From contig PLKM01000039.1 of assembly GCA_003141095.1 (NCBI GenBank), positions 35,285 through 99,284 on the forward strand: a stretch of DNA of 64,000 nt. The letters are read 5' to 3'. Origin of the DNA: Acidimicrobiaceae bacterium (GTDB taxonomy: Bacteria; Actinomycetota; Acidimicrobiia; Acidimicrobiales; RAAP-2). Below, in pieces: positions 4,796 through 37,882 of the stretch; position 1 is the first letter of the stretch, and each line of letters opens with the position of its first letter. A program made the translations under genes and the position numbers. The notes below the pieces were generated by a model. It was not told the DNA's origin and did no database searches. It saw nothing but the letters and a program-made list of their open reading frames with translations.

Positions 4796-7558
4796 TTGCG
4801 TGACGACTACGTAGAACAGCTTCCCGACGTCGACCCCGAAGAGACCACCGAGTGGCTCGATTCGCTCGACTCACTCGTCGACGCCGGCGGTGAGCGCCGC
4901 GCGAGGTTCGTACTCGCCAAGCTGACCGACCGCGCGCGCGCCCTCGGCGTCGGAACGCCCCTCGAAGTGTCAACCCCCTACATCAATACGATTCCCGCCT
5001 CGGCCCAAGAGTGGTTTCCCGGCGACGTTGCAATCGAACGCCGGATCCGTGCATACATCCGATGGAACGCCGCGGTCATGGTGGTGAACGCGAACCACCG
5101 CGCCGACGGGATCGGCGGGCACCTCGCCACGTACGCGTCGTCCGCCGGTCTCTACGAGTTGGGCTTCAACCACTTCTTCAAGGGCAAGGCGCACGGCCAG
5201 GCGGGCGATCACGTCTACTTCCAGGGCCACGCCGCACCGGGCATCTACTCACGCGCATATCTCGAAGGGCGTTTCGACGAGACCCATCTTTCGAACTTTC
5301 GTCGCGAACTCTCCGGCCACGGGCTTACGAGCTATCCGCACCCCTGGCTCATGGGAGATTTCTGGGAATTCCCCACCGTCTCCATGGGACTCGGTCCGAT
5401 CAACTCGATCTATCACGCCCGATTCAACCGTTACCTACACCACCGTCGAATCGACGACACATCCAATTCGAGGGTCTGGTGCTTTCTCGGCGATGGCGAG
5501 TGCGACGAGCCCGAGACGTTGGGTTCAATTAGCCTCGCGGGCCGCGAGCACCTTGACAATCTGACCTGGGTCGTCAACTGCAACCTCCAGCGTCTCGACG
5601 GGCCAGTGCGTGGCAACGGCAAGATCATCCAAGAGCTCGAGGCGGTCTTTCGCGGCGCGGGTTGGAACGTCATCAAGGTGATCTGGGCCGAAGGTTGGGA
5701 CGCACTACTCGCCCACGATACCGACGGGGTGTTGCTCGACAAGATGAATACGACGGTCGACGGAGAGTTCCAGCGCTACGCCACTGAATCGGGGGCCTAC
5801 ATTCGCGAGCACTTCTTCGGGCCCGATCCTCGACTGAGGGCGTTGGTGAGCCACCTCACGGACGACGAGTTGCAGAAGCTTCCGCGCGGCGGCCACGACT
5901 ACCTGAAGATGTACGCCGCGTACAAGTCCGCGACGGAGCACCGAGGCTCACCGACGGTCATCCTCGCCAAGACCGTCAAGGGATGGACGCTCGGCTCTGC
6001 CACCGAAGGACGCAACGCCAGCCACCAGGTGAAGAAACTCAATCACGACCAGCTCGTGTCACTGCGCACGAGACTCCATCTCGAAGACGTGATCGACGAG
6101 ACGGTTCTCGCGAAGGACGACCCTCCGTACTACCGGCCACCAGCAGAGTCCGACGAGTATCGATACATGACCGAGCGACGAGATCTTCTGGGCGGATCGC
6201 TGCCCCAACGCTCGACGATTATCCGCAAGCCGCTCGTGCTTCCACCCGATGACACCCTCAACGAGTTCGATCAGGGCTCGAAGGGCGCGGAGGTCTCGAC
6301 GACCATGAGTTTCACTCGGCTGCTGCGCACGCTCGCGCGCACTGAAGGATTGGGACCGCGGGTGGTCCCGATCATCCCCGACGAGGCGCGAACCTTCGGA
6401 ATGGACGCGCTTTTTCGCGAGTTTGGAATCTACGCGTCCGAGGGCCAGCGCTACGAGTCAGTCGACGCTCGGTTGCTCCTCAGCTACACCGAGTCCCAGG
6501 ACGGCCAACTGCTCGAAGAGGGAATCACCGAAGCGGGTTCCATGGCGAGCTTCACGGCCGCCGGCACGGCCTACGCGACGCGCGGCGTCCCCATGGTGCC
6601 CTTCTTCGCCTTCTATTCGATGTTCGGCTTCCAGCGCGTGGGTGACCTCATCTGGGCGGCCGCTGACGCGCAGGCCAAGGGGTTCCTGCTCGGAGCGACC
6701 GCCGGACGCACGACACTGCTCGGCGAAGGTCTTCAGCATCAGGACGGACACAGCCTGTTGCTGGCGTCAACGGTGCCCACCTGCCAGGCCTACGACCTCG
6801 CCTACGCCTACGAGGTCGCCGCCGTCGTGCGATGCGGCCTGCAACGGATGTATGGCGCCAAGGACGCGAACGGAACCGACGGGGCGGGAGAGTCGGTCTT
6901 CTACTACTTGACCCTGTACAACGAGAACTATGAGATGCCCGCTCGACCTGATGGGGTCACTGACGACCACATCATGTCCGGGCTCTACAAGTGGGCCGGC
7001 GCTCCTTCGGGCACCGAGGCAGTCGCCACCATACTGTTTTCGGGCTCGGCGCAGGGTGCCGCGCGCGCCGCGCAGACAGCACTGGCCGAGCGTTACGGCG
7101 TCGGCGCGGAACTGTGGAGTGCGACGAGCTACAAGCGACTTCGAGAAGACGCGCTTTCAGCGGAACGCGTGAACCGCCTCCATCCAATGGAGAAGCCGCG
7201 TCTCGCACCGGTGACCGAGTCGCTCTCGCGAGCCCCCGGGCCGGTGATCGCGGTCTCTGACTTCATGAAGGCGATCCCCGATCAAATCAGTCGGTTCGTT
7301 CCCCCAATCACTGTCGAAGGCGCGACGAAACGTGCCGCGACGCGTCCACGCCCTTTCATCACGCTTGGGACCGATGGATTCGGAAGGTCTGACACGCGCG
7401 AAGCGCTGCGCAGGTTCTTCGAGACCGACGAGGGCCACGTTGTCGTCGCCGTGCTATCGGGTCTGGCCGAACTCGGCGCGATCAAGCCGGAGGTCGTCGA
7501 AAGTGCCATCAAAGAGTACGGGCTCGATCCCGAACTCGACGACCCGAGAACGCGGTAG
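4796..7558 (+). CDS. aceE: Pyruvate dehydrogenase E1 component, homodimeric type
   Basis: 920 aa, TTG start. Characteristic AceE sequence (RRIRAYIRWNAAVMVVNANHRADGIGGHLATYASSAGLYELGFNHFFKG; FLGDGECDEPET; LGEGLQHQDGHSLLLASTVP). Confidence 0.96.
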   Translation: MRDDYVEQLPDVDPEETTEWLDSLDSLVDAGGERRARFVLAKLTDRARALGVGTPLEVSTPYINTIPASAQEWFPGDVAIERRIRAYIRWNAAVMVVNANHRADGIGGHLATYASSAGLYELGFNHFFKGKAHGQAGDHVYFQGHAAPGIYSRAYLEGRFDETHLSNFRRELSGHGLTSYPHPWLMGDFWEFPTVSMGLGPINSIYHARFNRYLHHRRIDDTSNSRVWCFLGDGECDEPETLGSISLAGREHLDNLTWVVNCNLQRLDGPVRGNGKIIQELEAVFRGAGWNVIKVIWAEGWDALLAHDTDGVLLDKMNTTVDGEFQRYATESGAYIREHFFGPDPRLRALVSHLTDDELQKLPRGGHDYLKMYAAYKSATEHRGSPTVILAKTVKGWTLGSATEGRNASHQVKKLNHDQLVSLRTRLHLEDVIDETVLAKDDPPYYRPPAESDEYRYMTERRDLLGGSLPQRSTIIRKPLVLPPDDTLNEFDQGSKGAEVSTTMSFTRLLRTLARTEGLGPRVVPIIPDEARTFGMDALFREFGIYASEGQRYESVDARLLLSYTESQDGQLLEEGITEAGSMASFTAAGTAYATRGVPMVPFFAFYSMFGFQRVGDLIWAAADAQAKGFLLGATAGRTTLLGEGLQHQDGHSLLLASTVPTCQAYDLAYAYEVAAVVRCGLQRMYGAKDANGTDGAGESVFYYLTLYNENYEMPARPDGVTDDHIMSGLYKWAGAPSGTEAVATILFSGSAQGAARAAQTALAERYGVGAELWSATSYKRLREDALSAERVNRLHPMEKPRLAPVTESLSRAPGPVIAVSDFMKAIPDQISRFVPPITVEGATKRAATRPRPFITLGTDGFGRSDTREALRRFFETDEGHVVVAVLSGLAELGAIKPEVVESAIKEYGLDPELDDPRTR

Positions 7559-7586
7559 GTGGTTTGCAAATGAGGAGAGAGTTCTG

Positions 7587-8891
7587 ATGACTGACGTACG
7601 CATGCCCGAGCTCGGTGAGACGATCACGCAGGGTACGATCACCCGATGGTTCAAGGAGGTCGGGGACACGGTCGCCGTCTCGGAAGCGCTCTTTGAGGTG
7701 TCGACGGAAAAGGTCGACGCCGAGGTGCCCTCGCCACTCGCCGGGACGATCACCAAGATCCTGATCGGTCTCGGTGAAACCGTCGACGTCGGCACGATCG
7801 TCGCCGAGATTGACGCCGTAGGTTCCGCGCCGTCATCCGTAACCGCTTCGCCCGCGCCACCCGTCGTACCCGAGGAACCGCAAACTGTGCCTTCAAGTAC
7901 AGCCGCCCAGCCTCCAACTCCCGCGCCACCCGCGCCACCTGTCGTGGAGGCGGCGCCACCGGCACCTCCACTACTCGTCACTTCACCTATCGTGCGCAAG
8001 TTGATCAACGACCTGGGCTCTGATGCGAACCTCGTAACCGGCACCGGCCCCGACGGGAGAGTTACCCGTCAGGACGCGGAGAAGGTGGCGTTCTCGACTG
8101 AACATCTTCGAACCGCCAGCGTCAAGAGTTCCAAAGAGGAGTTGGCGCCTTCGCGTCTCGTACCGCCTCCGGTACCCGAAGGGGCGAACTTCGTCGCGTT
8201 CAATAAGACACGAAAGATTACTGGCGATCGGATGGTGATTTCGAAGGCTACGTCGCCGCATGTCATGACCGCCGTCGAGGTCGACTACGAGCGGATTGAG
8301 TCGGTACGCCGTAAGAACCAAGGCCAGTGGCGTCGCGACGAGGGTTTCACCCTGACGTATCTCCCATTCATTTGCCGGGCGCTCGTGCAGGTGCTCCGCC
8401 AATTCCCACACCTCAACGCCTCGGTTGTCGAGTCCGGTCTCGTACTGCACGACCACGTGGATCTCAACATCGCAATCGATCTCAACTTCGAGGGTCTGCT
8501 CGCGCCGGTGGTCCGCAACGCCGAGGACAAACGTCTCGGCGCAATCGCCCGTGAGATCTCTGACCTCGCCACGAGGGCACGTAGTTCGAAGTTGCGCACT
8601 GAAGAGCTGATCGGCGGGACCTTCACGGTCTCGAACTCGGGGCCCTTTGGCACCTTCATGGTCGCGCCCGTCATCAACCAGCCCCAAGTGGCGATTCTCT
8701 CCACTGATGGCGTGTCGCGAAAGCCCGTCGTGATCACTGACAGCGAAGGGGGCGAATCGATTGCCATCCATTCGGTGGGAATGCTCGTCCTCAGCTGGGA
8801 CCACCGTGCCTTTGACGGAGCGTACGCAGCCGCGTTCCTTCGATCGCTGAAAGATGTGCTGGAAAACCATTCCTGGGAGTCAGAACTCTAA
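7587..8891 (+). CDS. 2-oxo acid dehydrogenase E2 component (dihydrolipoamide acyltransferase)
   Basis: N-terminal lipoyl domain (FEVSTEKVDAEVPSPLAG), Pro/Ala linker, peripheral-subunit-binding domain and catalytic domain with SWDHRAFDGAYAAAFL (intact HxxxDG). ATG at 7587; the ORF-track extension to 7332 overlaps aceE and looks spurious. Confidence 0.93.
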   Translation: MTDVRMPELGETITQGTITRWFKEVGDTVAVSEALFEVSTEKVDAEVPSPLAGTITKILIGLGETVDVGTIVAEIDAVGSAPSSVTASPAPPVVPEEPQTVPSSTAAQPPTPAPPAPPVVEAAPPAPPLLVTSPIVRKLINDLGSDANLVTGTGPDGRVTRQDAEKVAFSTEHLRTASVKSSKEELAPSRLVPPPVPEGANFVAFNKTRKITGDRMVISKATSPHVMTAVEVDYERIESVRRKNQGQWRRDEGFTLTYLPFICRALVQVLRQFPHLNASVVESGLVLHDHVDLNIAIDLNFEGLLAPVVRNAEDKRLGAIAREISDLATRARSSKLRTEELIGGTFTVSNSGPFGTFMVAPVINQPQVAILSTDGVSRKPVVITDSEGGESIAIHSVGMLVLSWDHRAFDGAYAAAFLRSLKDVLENHSWESEL

Positions 8892-29570: not shown

Positions 29571-30110
29571 TTAGTGAACTCGAGCGGTACGGTGGTGCGG
29601 CCCCTCGGCCCAACGGGCCATGGTCCACGCTAAGTCACTGAGGCGATTGAGATAGCCAACCACCATCGAGCCGTCGAGCGGATAGCCCACCGCTATGCGC
29701 TCGGCTCGGCGGATAGCGGTGCGCGCCACGTCGAGCGCGGCCGATAACTGGTTCTCACCGGGTACGACGAACTCCTTGGGCATCTCAATCTCTGCAGAGA
29801 GTGCGTCGATCTCGTTTTCCAATCGCGTAATCATCTCGCTCGTGACGAGCGACTTCTCGGCGGTGAGCTTGTGACGATTGGCGGGCAGTGTCGCCACTTC
29901 AGCCATCAGTACCCAGAGGTCGCGTTCGACGGTGATAAGGAGTTCGTTCAATCGACTCTCGGGCTCGCTCAGCGAACGCGCCCAACCGAGTGCGGCCTGC
30001 GCCTCGTCAACGGCGCCATTCACTTCAATCGGGTCCGAACTCTTCTCGACGCGGCCTCCGAAGTAAAGTCCCGTCGTGCCATCATCGCCATCTCGCGTAT
30101 AAATCTTCAC
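29571..30110 (-). CDS. Cob(I)yrinic acid a,c-diamide adenosyltransferase, PduO type
   Basis: VKIYTRDGDDGTTGLYFGGRVEKSSDPIEVNGAVDEAQAALGWARS; VPGENQLSAALDVARTAIRRAER; YLNRLSDLAW. GTG start at 30110 gives the canonical N-terminus. Confidence 0.93.
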   Translation of the reverse strand: MKIYTRDGDDGTTGLYFGGRVEKSSDPIEVNGAVDEAQAALGWARSLSEPESRLNELLITVERDLWVLMAEVATLPANRHKLTAEKSLVTSEMITRLENEIDALSAEIEMPKEFVVPGENQLSAALDVARTAIRRAERIAVGYPLDGSMVVGYLNRLSDLAWTMARWAEGPHHRTARVH

Positions 30111-30159
30111 ACCGTCAGCGTAGTGACATCGGCTCTCGCCCGGGTAGCCTGATAGTCCA

Positions 30160-33100
30160 ATGGAGTCCACCGTTCGTCTACCTTTTGCCCGTCCGACTTC
30201 GAACGACCCCTACCTGGCCGCGCTCGCCGAGCGAGTGCTCATCTACGACGGCGCCACGGGGACAAATCTCCAGATTCAAGATCTCTCGGCCGACGACTTC
30301 GGCGGCCCGGACTTCGAGGGCTGCAACGAGATCCTGGTGATCACTCGCCCCGACGCTATCGAGCGACTTCACCGCTCGTTTCTGGACGAAGGGGTCGACG
30401 TCATCGAGACCAACTCCTTTGGATCGTTCTCCGTCGTCCTCAACGAATACGGGATCAGCGAGCGGGCCCACGAGCTGGCCCTGGCCTCGGCCTCGATTGC
30501 GCGTCGCGTCGCCGACGGTTACGCCAGCCCCGGCTCGCCCAGGTTCGTGGCTGGATCAATGGGACCGGGCACCAAGTTCCCGACCCTCGGCCAGATCACC
30601 TACGACGAGCTCTCGGCCAGCTACGAAGAGCTGGCCTACGGGCTCCTCGAGGGCGGTGTCGACCTCTTGCTGGTCGAGACGATGTTTGACTTGCTGTCGG
30701 GCAAAGCCGCCATCGCCGCTTGTCACCGTGCCATGGCCCGCCATGGGCGAATTGTGCCCATCCAGGCCCAGGTGACGATTGAACTCACGGGACGCATGCT
30801 GCCGGGCACCGAGATTGGAGCCGCGATCACCGCGCTCAATCCATTGGGTATTGACCTGATTGGTCTCAACTGCGCTACCGGTCCCGTCGAGATGTACGAG
30901 CCCCTTCGTCAACTCTCAGAGACCGCCCCGATGCCCGTGGCGTGCCTACCCAATGCGGGACTGCCCAGCGTCGTCGATGGCAAGATGCACTACGACCTCA
31001 CGCCGGACGCTCTCGCCGAGCATCTGGTCAAGTTCGTGAGCGAGTACGGCGTCGAGGTGGTGGGCGGTTGCTGCGGCACGTCGCCCGAGCACATCAGGAG
31101 AGTGATCGAAGCTGTTCGCCCCCTCAAGCGCGCGCTTCGAGCGCCGGTGCTCGAGCCGGCGGTGGCGTCAATCTACGCACCCACCGCGTACAGCCAAGAC
31201 CGTTCCGTGCTGCTCGTTGGCGAACGTACGAACGCGAACGGCTCGAAGAAGTTCCGTGAGGCCATGCTCGAAGGCGACTGGGACATGTGCGTTGGCATAG
31301 GACGGGACCAGATCAAAGAAGGCGCCCACATACTGGACGTCTGCGTTGACTACACCGGCGCCGATGGCGTAAGCGACATGAACGAGATCATGAGTCGCCT
31401 CGCCACCCAGTCATCGGTCCCGATAATGGTCGACACCACCGAAACGCTCGTCGCACGCCAAGCCCTCACCTGGCTCGGAGGCAAGGCCATTTTGAACTCG
31501 GTGAACCTCGAGGAGGGCGACGGTCCGGGAACCCGGCTTGACGGCTTCCTTTCCCTCGCGGCCGAGTTTGGAGCGGCGGTGGTCGCCACGTGCATTGATG
31601 AGGAGGGCCAGGCTCGAACGGCTGACTGGAAGGTGCGCGCCGCGACCGCAATCGTCGATCTGGCCGTTCGCCGCTACGGGCTCAGCGCCGAGGACATCTT
31701 CATCGACCCGCTCGCCCTACCGCTTTCGACGGGCATGATTGATTCACGTCGCGACGGAATCGAAACCATCGATGCGATTCGCCGCATCAAGGCTGAACTG
31801 CCAGGCGTGAGGACCATCCTCGGGCTTTCCAACGTCTCGTTTGGTCTTAATCCCGCGGCTCGTCAGGTCCTCAACAGCGTCTTCCTGCACGAGTGCGCCG
31901 AGGCGGGTTTGGACGCCGCTATTGTTCACGCGTCAAAGATCCTGCCGCTGCACCGCGTTGATGAAGAAGTTCGCCGAGTCTGCCTCGATCTCATTTACGA
32001 CCGCCGCAGCGACGACTACGACCCGCTGACCGAGCTGCTGCGCATTTTCGAGGGCGTATCGACGTCGTCGACGAGCGGCCCTTCCCTCGACGATCTGCCA
32101 CTGAACGAGCGGCTGCGTCAGCGAGTCATTGAAGGCGCGCGCGTCGGGCTCGAGGCCGATCTCGAAGTGGCGATGTCGGACGGCATGTCGCCCCTCGACA
32201 TCGTAAACGAGATCCTGCTCGACGGAATGCGTGAAGTCGGCGAACTCTTCGCTTCAGGTGACATGCAGTTGCCCTTCGTCCTGCAAAGTGCAGAAACCAT
32301 GAAAACGGCCGTCGCCTACCTCGAGCCCCTTATGGAGAAGAGCGACCAGGGCGGACGCGGGCGCGTCGTGCTCGCCACCGTGAAGGGTGACGTGCACGAT
32401 ATTGGCAAGAATCTCGTCGACATCATCTTGACCAACAACGGCTACGAGGTCGTAAACCTCGGCATCAAGGTGGGAATCAATGAGATGCTGAGCGCGGTCC
32501 AGGAACACAAGGCTGACGCCTTGGGTATGAGCGGACTGCTCGTGAAGTCCACCCTCATCATGCGAGAGAACCTCGAACTGATGAACGACCGGGGCATGGC
32601 GGACCTTCCCGTGCTACTCGGAGGCGCGGCGTTGACGCGAACCTTCGTCGAGCGCGATCTTCGAGAGATCTACCAGGGAAAGCTCTTTTACGGCAAGGAC
32701 GCCTTCGAGGGCTTGCGCGTGCTGGACCGATTGGGCGAGCTGCGAAAGTCCGGTGAAGAGGATCCGAAGTTCGGCCGCGAGATCTCCGAACGAAAGGTGT
32801 TTCGACGAATCCGAGGTCAGGCCGGCGAGGCCCCCGCGGGACTGCCCCGCCGCAGCCCCGAGGTGGAAGAGGACAACCCGATCTTCGTACCACCGTTCCT
32901 CGGCAGCCGCGTTGCCAAGGGCATGTCCGTGGACGAGATCAGCGACTACCTCAACCTCACGGCCCTCTTTCGCAATCAGTGGGGATTTCGCCCGGAGAAC
33001 GGTGAGGACGACCCCGCCTTCAAGGAACGCGTTCGCGCGACGCTGCGCGAGCAGCTCGCGATCGTGAAGGAAGACGACCTGCTGATTCCCCAGGTCGTCT

Positions 33101-33666
33101 GGGGTCACTTCGCCGCCGCGTCGGACGGCAACGATCTGGTGCTCTTCTGCGATGACACCCGGGCCAGCGAACTCACGCGATTCACGTTTCCCCGCCAGCA
33201 CCAGATGCCCCACCTCTGCATCGCCGACTTCTTTCGCACCGTCGAGAGTCCCGACCACGACTACGCCAGTTTCATGCTGGTCACCATGGGCTCGCGCGTG
33301 TCCGAGCGTTGTCAGGAACTCTTCGCCGAGAATCGCTACACCGACTACTTGATGTTGCACGGTCTGGGCGTCGAAATGGCCGAAGCACTCGCCGAACTCT
33401 GGCACAAGCGCATTCGTCAAGAGCTGGGCTACGCCGAACAGGACGGACCCACCTTGACCGGCCTCTTTCGTCAGCAGTATCGAGGAGGACGCTACTCGTG
33501 GGGTTACCCCGCCTGCCCCGACCTCACCGACAACGCCAAGGTGGCCAACCTCTTGGAGGCAAGCCGCATCGGTGTCAGCGTGTCCGAGGGGTTCCAGCTC
33601 CACCCCGAACAGACCACCGACGCCATCATCTGTCACCACCCGATGGCGAAGTACTTCGTCGCCTAG
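30160..33666 (+). CDS. metH: Cobalamin-dependent methionine synthase
   Basis: 1168 aa: homocysteine-binding (DGATGTNLQIQ; GGCCGTSPEHI), pterin-binding (VLLVGERTNANGSKKF), B12-binding (VKGDVHDIGKNLVDIILTNNGYEVVNLG) and activation domain. Confidence 0.97.
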   Translation: MESTVRLPFARPTSNDPYLAALAERVLIYDGATGTNLQIQDLSADDFGGPDFEGCNEILVITRPDAIERLHRSFLDEGVDVIETNSFGSFSVVLNEYGISERAHELALASASIARRVADGYASPGSPRFVAGSMGPGTKFPTLGQITYDELSASYEELAYGLLEGGVDLLLVETMFDLLSGKAAIAACHRAMARHGRIVPIQAQVTIELTGRMLPGTEIGAAITALNPLGIDLIGLNCATGPVEMYEPLRQLSETAPMPVACLPNAGLPSVVDGKMHYDLTPDALAEHLVKFVSEYGVEVVGGCCGTSPEHIRRVIEAVRPLKRALRAPVLEPAVASIYAPTAYSQDRSVLLVGERTNANGSKKFREAMLEGDWDMCVGIGRDQIKEGAHILDVCVDYTGADGVSDMNEIMSRLATQSSVPIMVDTTETLVARQALTWLGGKAILNSVNLEEGDGPGTRLDGFLSLAAEFGAAVVATCIDEEGQARTADWKVRAATAIVDLAVRRYGLSAEDIFIDPLALPLSTGMIDSRRDGIETIDAIRRIKAELPGVRTILGLSNVSFGLNPAARQVLNSVFLHECAEAGLDAAIVHASKILPLHRVDEEVRRVCLDLIYDRRSDDYDPLTELLRIFEGVSTSSTSGPSLDDLPLNERLRQRVIEGARVGLEADLEVAMSDGMSPLDIVNEILLDGMREVGELFASGDMQLPFVLQSAETMKTAVAYLEPLMEKSDQGGRGRVVLATVKGDVHDIGKNLVDIILTNNGYEVVNLGIKVGINEMLSAVQEHKADALGMSGLLVKSTLIMRENLELMNDRGMADLPVLLGGAALTRTFVERDLREIYQGKLFYGKDAFEGLRVLDRLGELRKSGEEDPKFGREISERKVFRRIRGQAGEAPAGLPRRSPEVEEDNPIFVPPFLGSRVAKGMSVDEISDYLNLTALFRNQWGFRPENGEDDPAFKERVRATLREQLAIVKEDDLLIPQVVWGHFAAASDGNDLVLFCDDTRASELTRFTFPRQHQMPHLCIADFFRTVESPDHDYASFMLVTMGSRVSERCQELFAENRYTDYLMLHGLGVEMAEALAELWHKRIRQELGYAEQDGPTLTGLFRQQYRGGRYSWGYPACPDLTDNAKVANLLEASRIGVSVSEGFQLHPEQTTDAIICHHPMAKYFVA

Positions 33667-33672
33667 AGGTTG

Positions 33673-35298
33673 CTAGCGCCTCGTCGGCGCACTCACCGGC
33701 GTGGCGTCACTCAGTGCCTCTCGGGCGTGATAACTCGACCTGGTGAGCGGTGACGCCTGAACGTGCTTGAGGCCCAGCCGTTCGCCCCGCACGGCGAGTT
33801 CATCGAACTCAGCGGGCTCCCACCAGCGAGCCACCGGAAGATGCTGCTCGGTCGGTCGCAGATACTGGCCAATGGTCGCAATGGAGACGCCCACCGCCGC
33901 CAGGTCCGCCAGGGTCTCTTCCACCTCTTCGGGCGTTTCACCCAGACCGACCATCATGCCCGACTTGGTCGTGAGCCCCGACGCCACGCTTCTGGCGAGC
34001 ACGGTAAGCGAGCGGGCGTAGCCCGCACTCGGTCGTACGGCTCGCTGCAGGCGAGCCACGGTTTCAATGTTGTGGTTTACGACGTCGGGACGCGAATCGA
34101 GGATCAGGGCCAGCGAGTCGACGTCACCCTTCAGGTCACTGATGAGGACCTCGACATTGGTCTCCGGCGATCGCTCGCGGATCGCGAGGACCGTCGCGGC
34201 GATGGCCGCGGCCCCCCCGTCGTCGAGGTCGTCGCGGGCCACGCACGTGATGACGGCGTGGGCGAGCTTAAGGCGCACGACGGCTTCGGCGACCCGCTCG
34301 GGCTCGGTGGGATCAAGGGCGAGAGGCTTACGGGTGTCGATCAGGCAGAAACCGCAGGCCCTCGTGCATCGTTCGCCATTCACCATGAAGGTGGCCGTGC
34401 CACTCGCCCAGCACTCGAAGATATTGGGACACCCCGCCTCTTCGCAGACCGTGACGAGCCGCAGATCCTGGGTCAGCGTGCGCAGCGACTGATACTCCTC
34501 GCCCATTCGAGCCTCGATGCGCAGCCACTCGGGCTTACGAGAGTGCAGTGAGATTCCGGCGTCCGGGTCGACGCCGGCCTTGCGAAGCCTGCGCAGCAGC
34601 GGACGCTCACTCGACGTCGTCGAGGCACTGCGATCAACGCGCGCCACTGAACCGGGTCCTCCGAGGCGAGCGGACAGCTCGTCACCGAGACGCTCCTCGA
34701 CCTCCACCGATGTGACCCCGAGCCCCAAGGACTGCAACGACGCCACCGGCTTATCGGGAATGCCACAAGGGACAATGACCGAGAAACCCGAAAGATCTAT
34801 GTCGACGTTGAGCGCCACGCCGTGCAACGTGCGCCGTGCACCGCTTCCATTGCGCTCCGTTCGCACGCCCACCGCAGCGATCTTTGCGGGTCGTCTCTCC
34901 AGGTGCGCCCAGACCCCGGGATAACCCTCGAGTCGCCCGACGTCGCCCAAGCGGCCCCCGGGGTCCACACCCCTCACCGTGGCGATGACGGCATCCTCCA
35001 GATGAGCGACGTGGGCTTTTCCGGCCGAGGGATCGTCCGTCACCGTCACAATCGCCCACGCCACCACTTGGCCCGGGGCGTGGTACGTCACGTCGCCGCC
35101 GCGGTCCGCGTCGACGACGACGGCGTCGAGCTGGGCGGGCGGAACCAAGAAGTGCTCCTCTTGGGTTCGAATCCCGCGCGTGTACGTCGGCGGATGTTCG
35201 AACAACAAGACGTAGTCATCGCTCGACTGCATGAGCGCGCGCTGCAGATCGTTGGCCTCGGCGAAGGAGATCCGTCCCAGATGACGTCGGCGAAGCAT
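33673..35298 (-). CDS. LipB-LipA fusion: lipoyl(octanoyl) transferase plus lipoyl synthase in one ORF
   Basis: LipB part: RGGDVTYHAPGQVVAW, KIAAVGVRTER, LHGVALNVDIDLSGFSVIVPCGIPD. LipA part: PEWLRI, CEEAGCPNIFEC (CX4CX5C), RCTRACGFC (CX3CX2C), SSYHARE. No stop between the domains. Confidence 0.93.
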   Translation of the reverse strand: MLRRRHLGRISFAEANDLQRALMQSSDDYVLLFEHPPTYTRGIRTQEEHFLVPPAQLDAVVVDADRGGDVTYHAPGQVVAWAIVTVTDDPSAGKAHVAHLEDAVIATVRGVDPGGRLGDVGRLEGYPGVWAHLERRPAKIAAVGVRTERNGSGARRTLHGVALNVDIDLSGFSVIVPCGIPDKPVASLQSLGLGVTSVEVEERLGDELSARLGGPGSVARVDRSASTTSSERPLLRRLRKAGVDPDAGISLHSRKPEWLRIEARMGEEYQSLRTLTQDLRLVTVCEEAGCPNIFECWASGTATFMVNGERCTRACGFCLIDTRKPLALDPTEPERVAEAVVRLKLAHAVITCVARDDLDDGGAAAIAATVLAIRERSPETNVEVLISDLKGDVDSLALILDSRPDVVNHNIETVARLQRAVRPSAGYARSLTVLARSVASGLTTKSGMMVGLGETPEEVEETLADLAAVGVSIATIGQYLRPTEQHLPVARWWEPAEFDELAVRGERLGLKHVQASPLTRSSYHAREALSDATPVSAPTRR

Positions 35299-36474
35299 CT
35301 AGCGCTCGCTCTCCAGGTCCATCCCCGCGAGTAGTTCAGCGACCCGCTCCAGATAGCTCGCCGCCGACACCGGCTCGCAGATACGGTGGTCGAACGAGAG
35401 GCCGAGCACCAGGCGACGGCCGATTTCAATCGACGTCGCTCCGTCTTTGGTGACGACGACCGGCTCGAGTCGAACCGCCCCGACGCTGAGCACCGCGACC
35501 TCGGGTTGAATGATGATGGGCTCGACCCACAAGGTGTGCTCGCTCGGCGCGCCCACGATGGTGAAAGTACCGCCCATCAGATCGTCGGTCGTGAGTTGGC
35601 GCGACGCGAGCCGATTCGCGAGTTCACTGACCCGCCGGGCCAGGGCTCGAAGGGTGAGGCCCGCGGCGGCGTGCACGACCGGCACCAGCATCCCGTCGTC
35701 AGCCACGTGGCGCATGAAGCCCAGGTTCACCGTGCGGTGCACCACGAGCACCTCGCCCTGGAACGTGGCGTTGAGATAATCGAATTCAGCCAGAGCTCGC
35801 ACCGCGGCGAGACTGACCACCATTTCGTCGGTGATGGCCACTCCGTCGCGCGTCGCTCGACCGAGCCGGTCGAGTTCGCCAAAGACAGCGCCATCGATCT
35901 CAATGGCCACGAACCCGTGCGGCGTGGACTGGGCCGACGCCGAGAGGTGCTGGCCCATCCGACGTCGTCCGTTGGAGAGCGGGACCACCACTTCCTCGGT
36001 GGGTCCGCTCGCCACCGCGCGCTCGGCGTCGCGGCGAGTAATCGATCCTCCCGGACCGGAACCTCGAAGCGTCGACGGCTCGACACCACCGTCGCTCAGG
36101 ATCCGGCGCACCACTGGCGATACGATGAGGCCATTCTGGGCGGCCTCGTTGACGTTCGCCGCGCGAGGCGGCTCCGTCGCGGTCGGTTTCGAGGCTGGCG
36201 ACGTTGGTTCGTTCGCTGTTGGCGCGCCTCCGGCTACGGCGTTCTCGTCGATTACCCCGACGCGCGCGCCGGTTTCGACGGTGTCACCCTCGCCCGCCAA
36301 GATCTGCACGAGCACCCCAGCCGCCGGAGAGGGCATCTCCGAGTCAACCTTGTCGGTCGAAACCTCGAAGAGCGGCTCGTCACGGGCTACGGCGTCGCCC
36401 ACTTTCTTGAACCACTGCGTAATGATTCCTTCGGTGACCGACTCACCAAGCGAGGGGAGCGTTACATCAACCAA
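35299..36474 (-). CDS. 2-oxo acid dehydrogenase E2-like acyltransferase (second paralog)
   Basis: Lipoyl domain (FEVSTDKVDSEMPSPAAG), PSBD (VSPVVRRILSDGGVEPSTLRGSGPGGSITRRDAERA) and acyltransferase domain ending LGLSFDHRICEPVSAASYLERV. Confidence 0.88.
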   Translation of the reverse strand: MVDVTLPSLGESVTEGIITQWFKKVGDAVARDEPLFEVSTDKVDSEMPSPAAGVLVQILAGEGDTVETGARVGVIDENAVAGGAPTANEPTSPASKPTATEPPRAANVNEAAQNGLIVSPVVRRILSDGGVEPSTLRGSGPGGSITRRDAERAVASGPTEEVVVPLSNGRRRMGQHLSASAQSTPHGFVAIEIDGAVFGELDRLGRATRDGVAITDEMVVSLAAVRALAEFDYLNATFQGEVLVVHRTVNLGFMRHVADDGMLVPVVHAAAGLTLRALARRVSELANRLASRQLTTDDLMGGTFTIVGAPSEHTLWVEPIIIQPEVAVLSVGAVRLEPVVVTKDGATSIEIGRRLVLGLSFDHRICEPVSAASYLERVAELLAGMDLESER

Positions 36475-37882
36475 GGTGAAGCCCTCGACCCGCGAGCGCC
36501 AGCAGCGTCTCGCCGAAGGTCTCTGACAGCGAAGGGTGGGGCTGGATCAGCGCCGCTGCTTCTTCGGCCGTGGCTTCCCAGTTCACGGCAAAGTAGCCAG
36601 CGCCGAGCTGCTCGGTCACCCACGGTCCGGCCATGTGAACGCCCAGGATCTGGCCGGCCGTGCCATCGGCACGCTTCTCGGCGATGATCTTGACGACTCC
36701 TTCGGTCTCGCCGATGATCTGCGCGCGGCTGTTGCCACCGAAGGGATCCTTCTTCACGACGACCTCGTACCCCTTTTCCTTGGCGGCCGCCTCGGTCAAT
36801 CCGCAAAACGCCACTTCGGGGTTCGAATAGATGGCCCACGGCACTCGCTCGTAGTCAACCGGCACCACTGGCTCGCCGAGGATGGTCTTCACCGCGACAA
36901 TCGCCTCGGCGAACCCGACGTGGGCGAGTTGTGGGGAGTTGGCGACTACGTCGCCCACGGCGAAGACGTTGGGGTTTGCGGTGCGCTGGTAGCTGTCGGC
37001 GACCACGAAGCCACGGTCGTCCAACACGACGTTGGTTCCCTCGCCCAACAGTCCTTCCGTACGCGCACGTCGGCCCACGGACATCACGACCATGTCGACC
37101 TTCACGTCCTCGGCGCCATCCATCGTGATAGCCGTGCCGCTCTTCTTGGGCGTGTGGCCCGTGATCTTGACGCCGGTTTGGATTTCGATCCCGCGCTTCT
37201 TGAAGGAGCGCTGCACGACTGTCGCCACTTCAGTGTCGCAGCCCGCGAGAATCGACGGCAGTCCCTCGAGAATCGTGACCTTGGTCCCCATGTCGCTGAG
37301 CATTGACGCGAACTCACAGCCAATGGCGCCCCCGCCAATGACCGCTGCAGTCCCGGGCAGCGACGAGAGGTCGAGAAACTCGTCAGACGTCAAGACAATT
37401 TTGCCGTCCACGTCGAATCCGGGCAGCGTTCGTGGTACCGAACCGGCGGCGAGCACGATGTTCTTGCCCTGGGCCACGACGCCTTCATCGGCGCCGTCAA
37501 CCACGGTAACGGTCTGATCGGCGTCGAGGCGGCCGGTGCCCGCAAAGACCGTGACCTTGCGGCCCTTCAAGAGGCCCGAAAGTCCCTTGAAGAGGCGGTC
37601 GACAATTTCGTTCTTGCGTGCCTGGCTGACGGCGAAGTCGACTTGCACGTCCTTGGAGGTGATGCCAAAGGCATGAGCGTGTTGGAGGGTTCGAAGCACG
37701 TGCGCCGTTTCGAGGAACTCCTTAGCGGGCACACAGCCGCGGTGCAGACACGTGCCGCCGACTTTGTCGCGCTCCACGATTGCGACGTTCAAACCGGCTG
37801 CGGCACCGTAGAGAGCGGTGGCGTACCCACCGGGTCCTCCTCCGATTACGACTACATCGAACTGCTGGACCTCGTTAGCCAC
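36467..37882 (-). CDS. lpdA: Dihydrolipoyl dehydrogenase
   Basis: DVVVIGGGPGGYATALYGAAAGLNVAIVERDKVGGTCLHRGCVPAKEFL; FAVGDVV; C-terminal HPHPSLSE-type dimerisation motif (IQPHPSLSETFGE). Confidence 0.96.
   Translation of the reverse strand: MANEVQQFDVVVIGGGPGGYATALYGAAAGLNVAIVERDKVGGTCLHRGCVPAKEFLETAHVLRTLQHAHAFGITSKDVQVDFAVSQARKNEIVDRLFKGLSGLLKGRKVTVFAGTGRLDADQTVTVVDGADEGVVAQGKNIVLAAGSVPRTLPGFDVDGKIVLTSDEFLDLSSLPGTAAVIGGGAIGCEFASMLSDMGTKVTILEGLPSILAGCDTEVATVVQRSFKKRGIEIQTGVKITGHTPKKSGTAITMDGAEDVKVDMVVMSVGRRARTEGLLGEGTNVVLDDRGFVVADSYQRTANPNVFAVGDVVANSPQLAHVGFAEAIVAVKTILGEPVVPVDYERVPWAIYSNPEVAFCGLTEAAAKEKGYEVVVKKDPFGGNSRAQIIGETEGVVKIIAEKRADGTAGQILGVHMAGPWVTEQLGAGYFAVNWEATAEEAAALIQPHPSLSETFGETLLALAGRGLHLG

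Follow-up and report, generated by a model that had tools for sequence, protein, structure and literature searches.

Described lipoyl-assembly enzymes and their fusions

In most bacteria, the octanoyltransferase LipB and the lipoyl synthase LipA are separate proteins that work one after the other on a shared protein-bound substrate. Both can be compared with structures from M. tuberculosis, namely LipA (5exi/5exk) and LipB (PDB 1w66), whose catalytic dyad is formed by C176 and K142 (PMC9307952). An acyl-attaching enzyme placed N-terminal to LipA is known from the bifunctional lipoate-protein ligase/lipoyl synthase NF053790, the N-terminal part of which is, by its name, of the LplA type. Passages of a survey of lipoate evolution discuss fusions of LplA with LplB and not of LipB with LipA (PMC10332631). 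Our literature search, with most subscription papers outside its scope, found no published LipB–LipA fusion; it also found no paper that settles the physical cooperation of LipB and LipA. The fusion of LplA with LipA is thus already known, while that of LipB with LipA in Acidimicrobiia is apparently undescribed.

The gene described here, lipBA, lies in the window, that is, the whole 64,000-nucleotide stretch of DNA that was analysed. Like NF053790, its product carries an acyl-attaching enzyme in front of LipA, but this enzyme is LipB. As a member of NF053790 itself, lipBA was rejected: it scored 353 bits where the cut-off demands 800, and the match covered only profile positions 329–605, which is the LipA part. 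The gene and its parts are as follows.

33673..35298, minus strand: lipBA, fused LipB–LipA of 541 aa (ORF, Pfam, and NCBIfam)
34654..35298, minus strand: LipB octanoyltransferase domain, residues about 1–215 (Pfam LplA-B_cat, TIGR00214, 1w66 alignment)
34549..34653, minus strand: interdomain linker, residues about 216–250, translated (relatives without stops; differences at codon position 3)
33703..34548, minus strand: LipA lipoyl synthase domain, residues about 251–532 (TIGR00510, LIAS_N, Radical_SAM, 5exi alignment)
34645..34647, minus strand: in-frame GTG (V218), proposed as an internal LipA start and rejected as not conserved

Reading frame and active sites

The sequence-only reading had proposed that LipB and LipA share one 541-aa polypeptide, and this is what is found: a single uninterrupted frame occupies 33673–35298 on the minus strand, both families score above their curated cut-offs, and plus-strand translation of the same interval is interrupted by stops. 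Pfam places LplA-B_cat at residues 17–208, LIAS_N at 252–290, and Radical_SAM at 309–465. The start codon is an ATG immediately behind the stop codon of the upstream E2 gene (TAG ATG), and the GGAG 5′ of it sits within the E2 gene.

The LipB half reaches 115.7 bits against NCBIfam TIGR00214 (lipB; cut-off 83.55), while against the narrower PRK14345 model it reaches 139.6, below the cut-off of 155, as is also the case with some narrower LipB models of NCBIfam. The motifs named by the sequence-only reading (KIAAVGV, PCGIPD, CX4CX5C, CX3CX2C, and SSYHA) were all located. K139 lies within KIAAVGV (codon 34882–34884) and C178 within PCGIPD (codon 34765–34767), and the two align with the Cys/Lys dyad of M. 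tuberculosis LipB; the RGGD motif occupies residues 66–69. The Lys/Cys dyad and the RGG (R66-G67-G68), which are required for LipB, are thus present. A fold search leads from this half to 1w66, with which it shares the dyad, the RGG loop, and the fold at about 38% identity over the fold match; the difference is that in lipBA this enzyme is built into a larger protein as its N-terminal half.

The LipA half scores 333.8 bits against NCBIfam TIGR00510 (lipA; cut-off 310.25). Its auxiliary-cluster cysteines are C285-X4-C290-X5-C296 and its radical-SAM cysteines C311-X3-C315-X2-C318, with all six codons within 34345–34446, and in the 5exi alignment they correspond to the LipA clusters. At the C-terminus, RSSY is found at 520–523 and SSYHA at 521–525, so that the two cysteine motifs and the RSSY serine required for LipA are all in place. 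The fold search leads to 5exk; lipBA resembles M. tuberculosis LipA in both Fe-S motifs, RSSY, and the fold (about 49–51% identity over the fold match), but the N-terminus that is free there is attached to LipB here. In an alignment of 46 fused homologues, K139, C178, RGGD 66–69, C285/290/296, C311/315/318, and RSS 520–522 (R520-S521-S522) are invariant.

Distribution within Acidimicrobiia

lipBA is matched in 141 of 148 class genomes, mostly as one uninterrupted full-length match; no match was found in the remaining 7, several of which are incomplete. The fusion is carried by 108 distinct class proteins from many sequencing projects, including MAGs labelled Acidimicrobiaceae, Acidimicrobium, Ferrithrix, Microthrix, and OCS155; from these labels the class was identified as Acidimicrobiia. 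About 110 class loci were opened, and wherever no contig end cuts lipA, it stands in one frame with lipB, with two exceptions (L060 and L179). In L179 the frame is broken within lipA. L060 is a split lipB–lipA pair on a 5-kb contig of G052, a genome that also carries the fusion, and the pair may be contamination. Stops flagged inside some class matches (e.g., G007, “1 TGA”) were dismissed, as the opened loci show lipB and lipA in one open frame; likewise, class genomes with two apparent matches proved to have one open frame with a longer linker.

G092 encodes a stand-alone 250-aa LipB (L123:3018-3770, minus strand, with no E2 neighbour) that nests inside the fused clade of the LipB tree, and lipA was not found in this genome, which is 85% complete. 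This LipB is possibly a secondary fission product or a truncated copy, and its position within the fused clade means that the halves are separable.

The search for full-length homologues over both domains, suggested in the sequence-only reading, thus found them in close and distant relatives. The fusion had been called unusual there; outside the lineage this holds, but inside the class the fusion is the normal state.

Relatives outside the class and origin of the fusion

Among the matches listed from 397 phylum genomes searched, none outside the class is uninterrupted and full-length, though a fusion may still occur elsewhere in the phylum. The 32 out-of-class phylum loci that were opened contain no fusion, lipB being separate or outside the fetched stretch. 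Outside the class, lipB and lipA are separate and often adjacent behind an E2 gene, and many keep the gene order E2–lipB–lipA; this order, and the nearest LipA kin, link other Actinomycetota to lipBA, but there the two proteins are parted by a stop codon. At several out-of-class loci, among them L055, L080, and L176, lipB and lipA are in the same frame with one stop between them.

The trees were quick ones without bootstrap, with support given as SH-aLRT. For LipA, the class sequences fall into a single clade (SH-aLRT 98) next to actinobacterial LipAs of the split type, and class fusions likewise form one clade in the LipB tree (SH-aLRT 96). Since both trees group the class fusions in this way, a single ancestral fusion fits best. 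It would date from the base of Acidimicrobiia, or close to it, and derive from the actinobacterial E2–lipB–lipA order; the in-frame lipB stop would have been lost and the resulting fusion retained almost without exception. The simplest route that we infer is that an operon of this kind lost a single stop codon. A Chloroflexota MAG (L174:2932-4539, plus strand) also holds a LipB–LipA fusion, in which both active sites are present, the linker is shorter, and the gene order is E2–lpd–lipBA. Neither tree places it in the class clade, and, on a single MAG contig, it is apparently of independent origin.

Interdomain linker and alternative readings

Whether the two genes are truly joined can be judged from the linker. 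Its 8305 codons in 108 distinct homologues from the class include no in-frame stop, while the other two frames contain 198 and 286 stops against a shuffling expectation of about 245 (109 loci), and differences between the window and close relatives concentrate at codon position 3 (e.g., 8/9/37), which is coding-like. The absence of in-frame stops, together with this third-position bias, indicates that the linker is under coding constraint. A sequencing or assembly error that erased a stop between adjacent genes is conceivable in view of the same-frame, single-stop pairs outside the class, but the uninterrupted frame is common to 108 distinct class proteins and the linker is constrained, and because relatives share the open frame this explanation is rejected with near certainty. 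The sequence-only reading had named a missed stop at the junction, or relatives with split genes, as what would speak against the fusion; neither holds across the 108 distinct class fusions. That reading had also suggested that the GTG at 34647 could give a stand-alone LipA besides the fusion. A GGAGG does lie about 10 nt upstream of it in the window genome, but this GGAGG is not kept in relatives, and the codon is of start type in just 6 of 13 close relatives, with GTC, GTT, AGG, or others elsewhere. Moreover, in-frame pairs of ribosome-binding site and start occur in 55 of 109 linkers, where codon-shuffled linkers give a mean of 63, so there is no excess, and an internal start here is very improbable. 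It is hardly more credible, and if anything slightly less so, that one half has lost its activity and is retained merely as a scaffold or regulator: no support for this was found, K139, C178, RGGD, the six Fe-S cysteines, and RSS do not vary among the 46 fusions, and the genome has no second LipB or LplA over cut-off to act as a substitute. On sequence grounds, lipBA is to be taken as a real, lineage-wide fusion of two ordinary enzymes.

Neighbouring genes and lipoylation targets

Two genes precede lipBA on the same strand.

35299..36474, minus strand: E2-like lipoyl-domain protein, directly upstream of lipBA (Biotin_lipoyl, E3_binding, 2-oxoacid_dh)
36467..37882, minus strand: lpd, dihydrolipoyl dehydrogenase (TIGR01350, 468 bits)

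They form the run lpd–E2–lipBA, in which lpd and E2 overlap by 8 nt and the order is conserved among relatives; most class loci with this flank covered have an E2 in front of lipBA. The adjacent E2 is a probable substrate of lipBA. In the window genome (93% complete) lipBA is matched once and is the sole LipB/LplA-type gene to pass the Pfam cut-off; it is the only recognisable octanoyltransferase and lipoyl synthase there. Proteins of this genome that require lipoylation include GcvH and several E2s. Since no second gene of this type was found beside the one lipBA, the fusion is probably the lipoylation enzyme for GcvH and all of these E2s.

Several further features of the surroundings were observed. 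In the E2 beside lipBA, the lipoyl DKVD motif and the E3-binding domain are retained, but the catalytic HxxxDG reads HRICEP; the DG is absent in all sampled genus-level relatives of the window, and most other class members have HRAFDG. This protein may be an altered E2 or a subunit resembling E3-binding protein. A second lipoyl-domain locus is present in the window, where an E2 with a canonical WDHRAFDG (7332–8891, plus strand) comes after a gene judged by eye to be pyruvate dehydrogenase E1-like (4796–7558, plus strand). On the other side, metH (plus strand) converges with lipBA at 33666–33673 across a 6-base gap, and a cobalamin adenosyltransferase gene (29571–30170) lies beside metH.

Proposed catalytic mechanism and coupling of the two halves

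In the proposed mechanism, the LipB half would take octanoyl from octanoyl-ACP onto C178 and then pass it to the target lysine of the lipoyl domain, with K139 as acid/base; the LipA half, with its auxiliary and radical-SAM 4Fe-4S clusters, would then insert two sulfur atoms into that octanoyl-lysine. The benefit may be a fixed 1:1 supply and a higher local concentration, so that the octanoylated lipoyl domain would meet LipA at once. Both activities, translation at full length, and any kinetic or functional coupling of the halves are inferred. As both enzymes are in one polypeptide, physical coupling of octanoyl transfer and sulfur insertion, as the sequence-only reading had it, is plausible and agrees with the compact structure that is predicted. 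The AlphaFold2 model of the 541-aa protein (mean pLDDT 91.6, pTM 0.92) suggests a defined arrangement of the LipB and LipA halves, and the predicted pLDDT of the linker is about 67–93.

How far coupling goes beyond tethering can be weighed from these data. Channeling, in which a defined LipB/LipA interface would allow direct hand-over of the octanoylated lipoyl domain, is favoured by the pTM, which over the full length implies a confidently predicted relative placement, by a mostly ordered linker, and by retention of the fusion across the class. However, the linker ranges from 46 to 192 residues across class fusions, a variation that speaks against a rigidly preserved geometry, and what is handed over is a protein domain bearing a covalent modification, which is free to diffuse; channeling is regarded as rather unlikely. 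Halves that fold and act independently, with no cooperation, would look the same in sequence. A little more doubtful than channeling is the most far-reaching view, that of a dedicated lipoyl-assembly machine with a fixed arrangement and site-to-site hand-over, fixed class-wide and reached independently at least once more, in the Chloroflexota MAG. The reading preferred here is that lipBA is one bifunctional lipoyl-assembly enzyme, produced by a single loss of the lipB stop at or close to the root of Acidimicrobiia; this is regarded as highly probable.

Implications

Proteins of the lipBA type are hit by the models for lipA and for lipB alike, so that annotation under one name would hide one half. 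The fusion is a possible lineage marker for Acidimicrobiia. As a natural fusion spread over a whole class, it offers a model for testing how the octanoylated lipoyl domain is handed over, and a structure of lipBA might capture the two active sites together.
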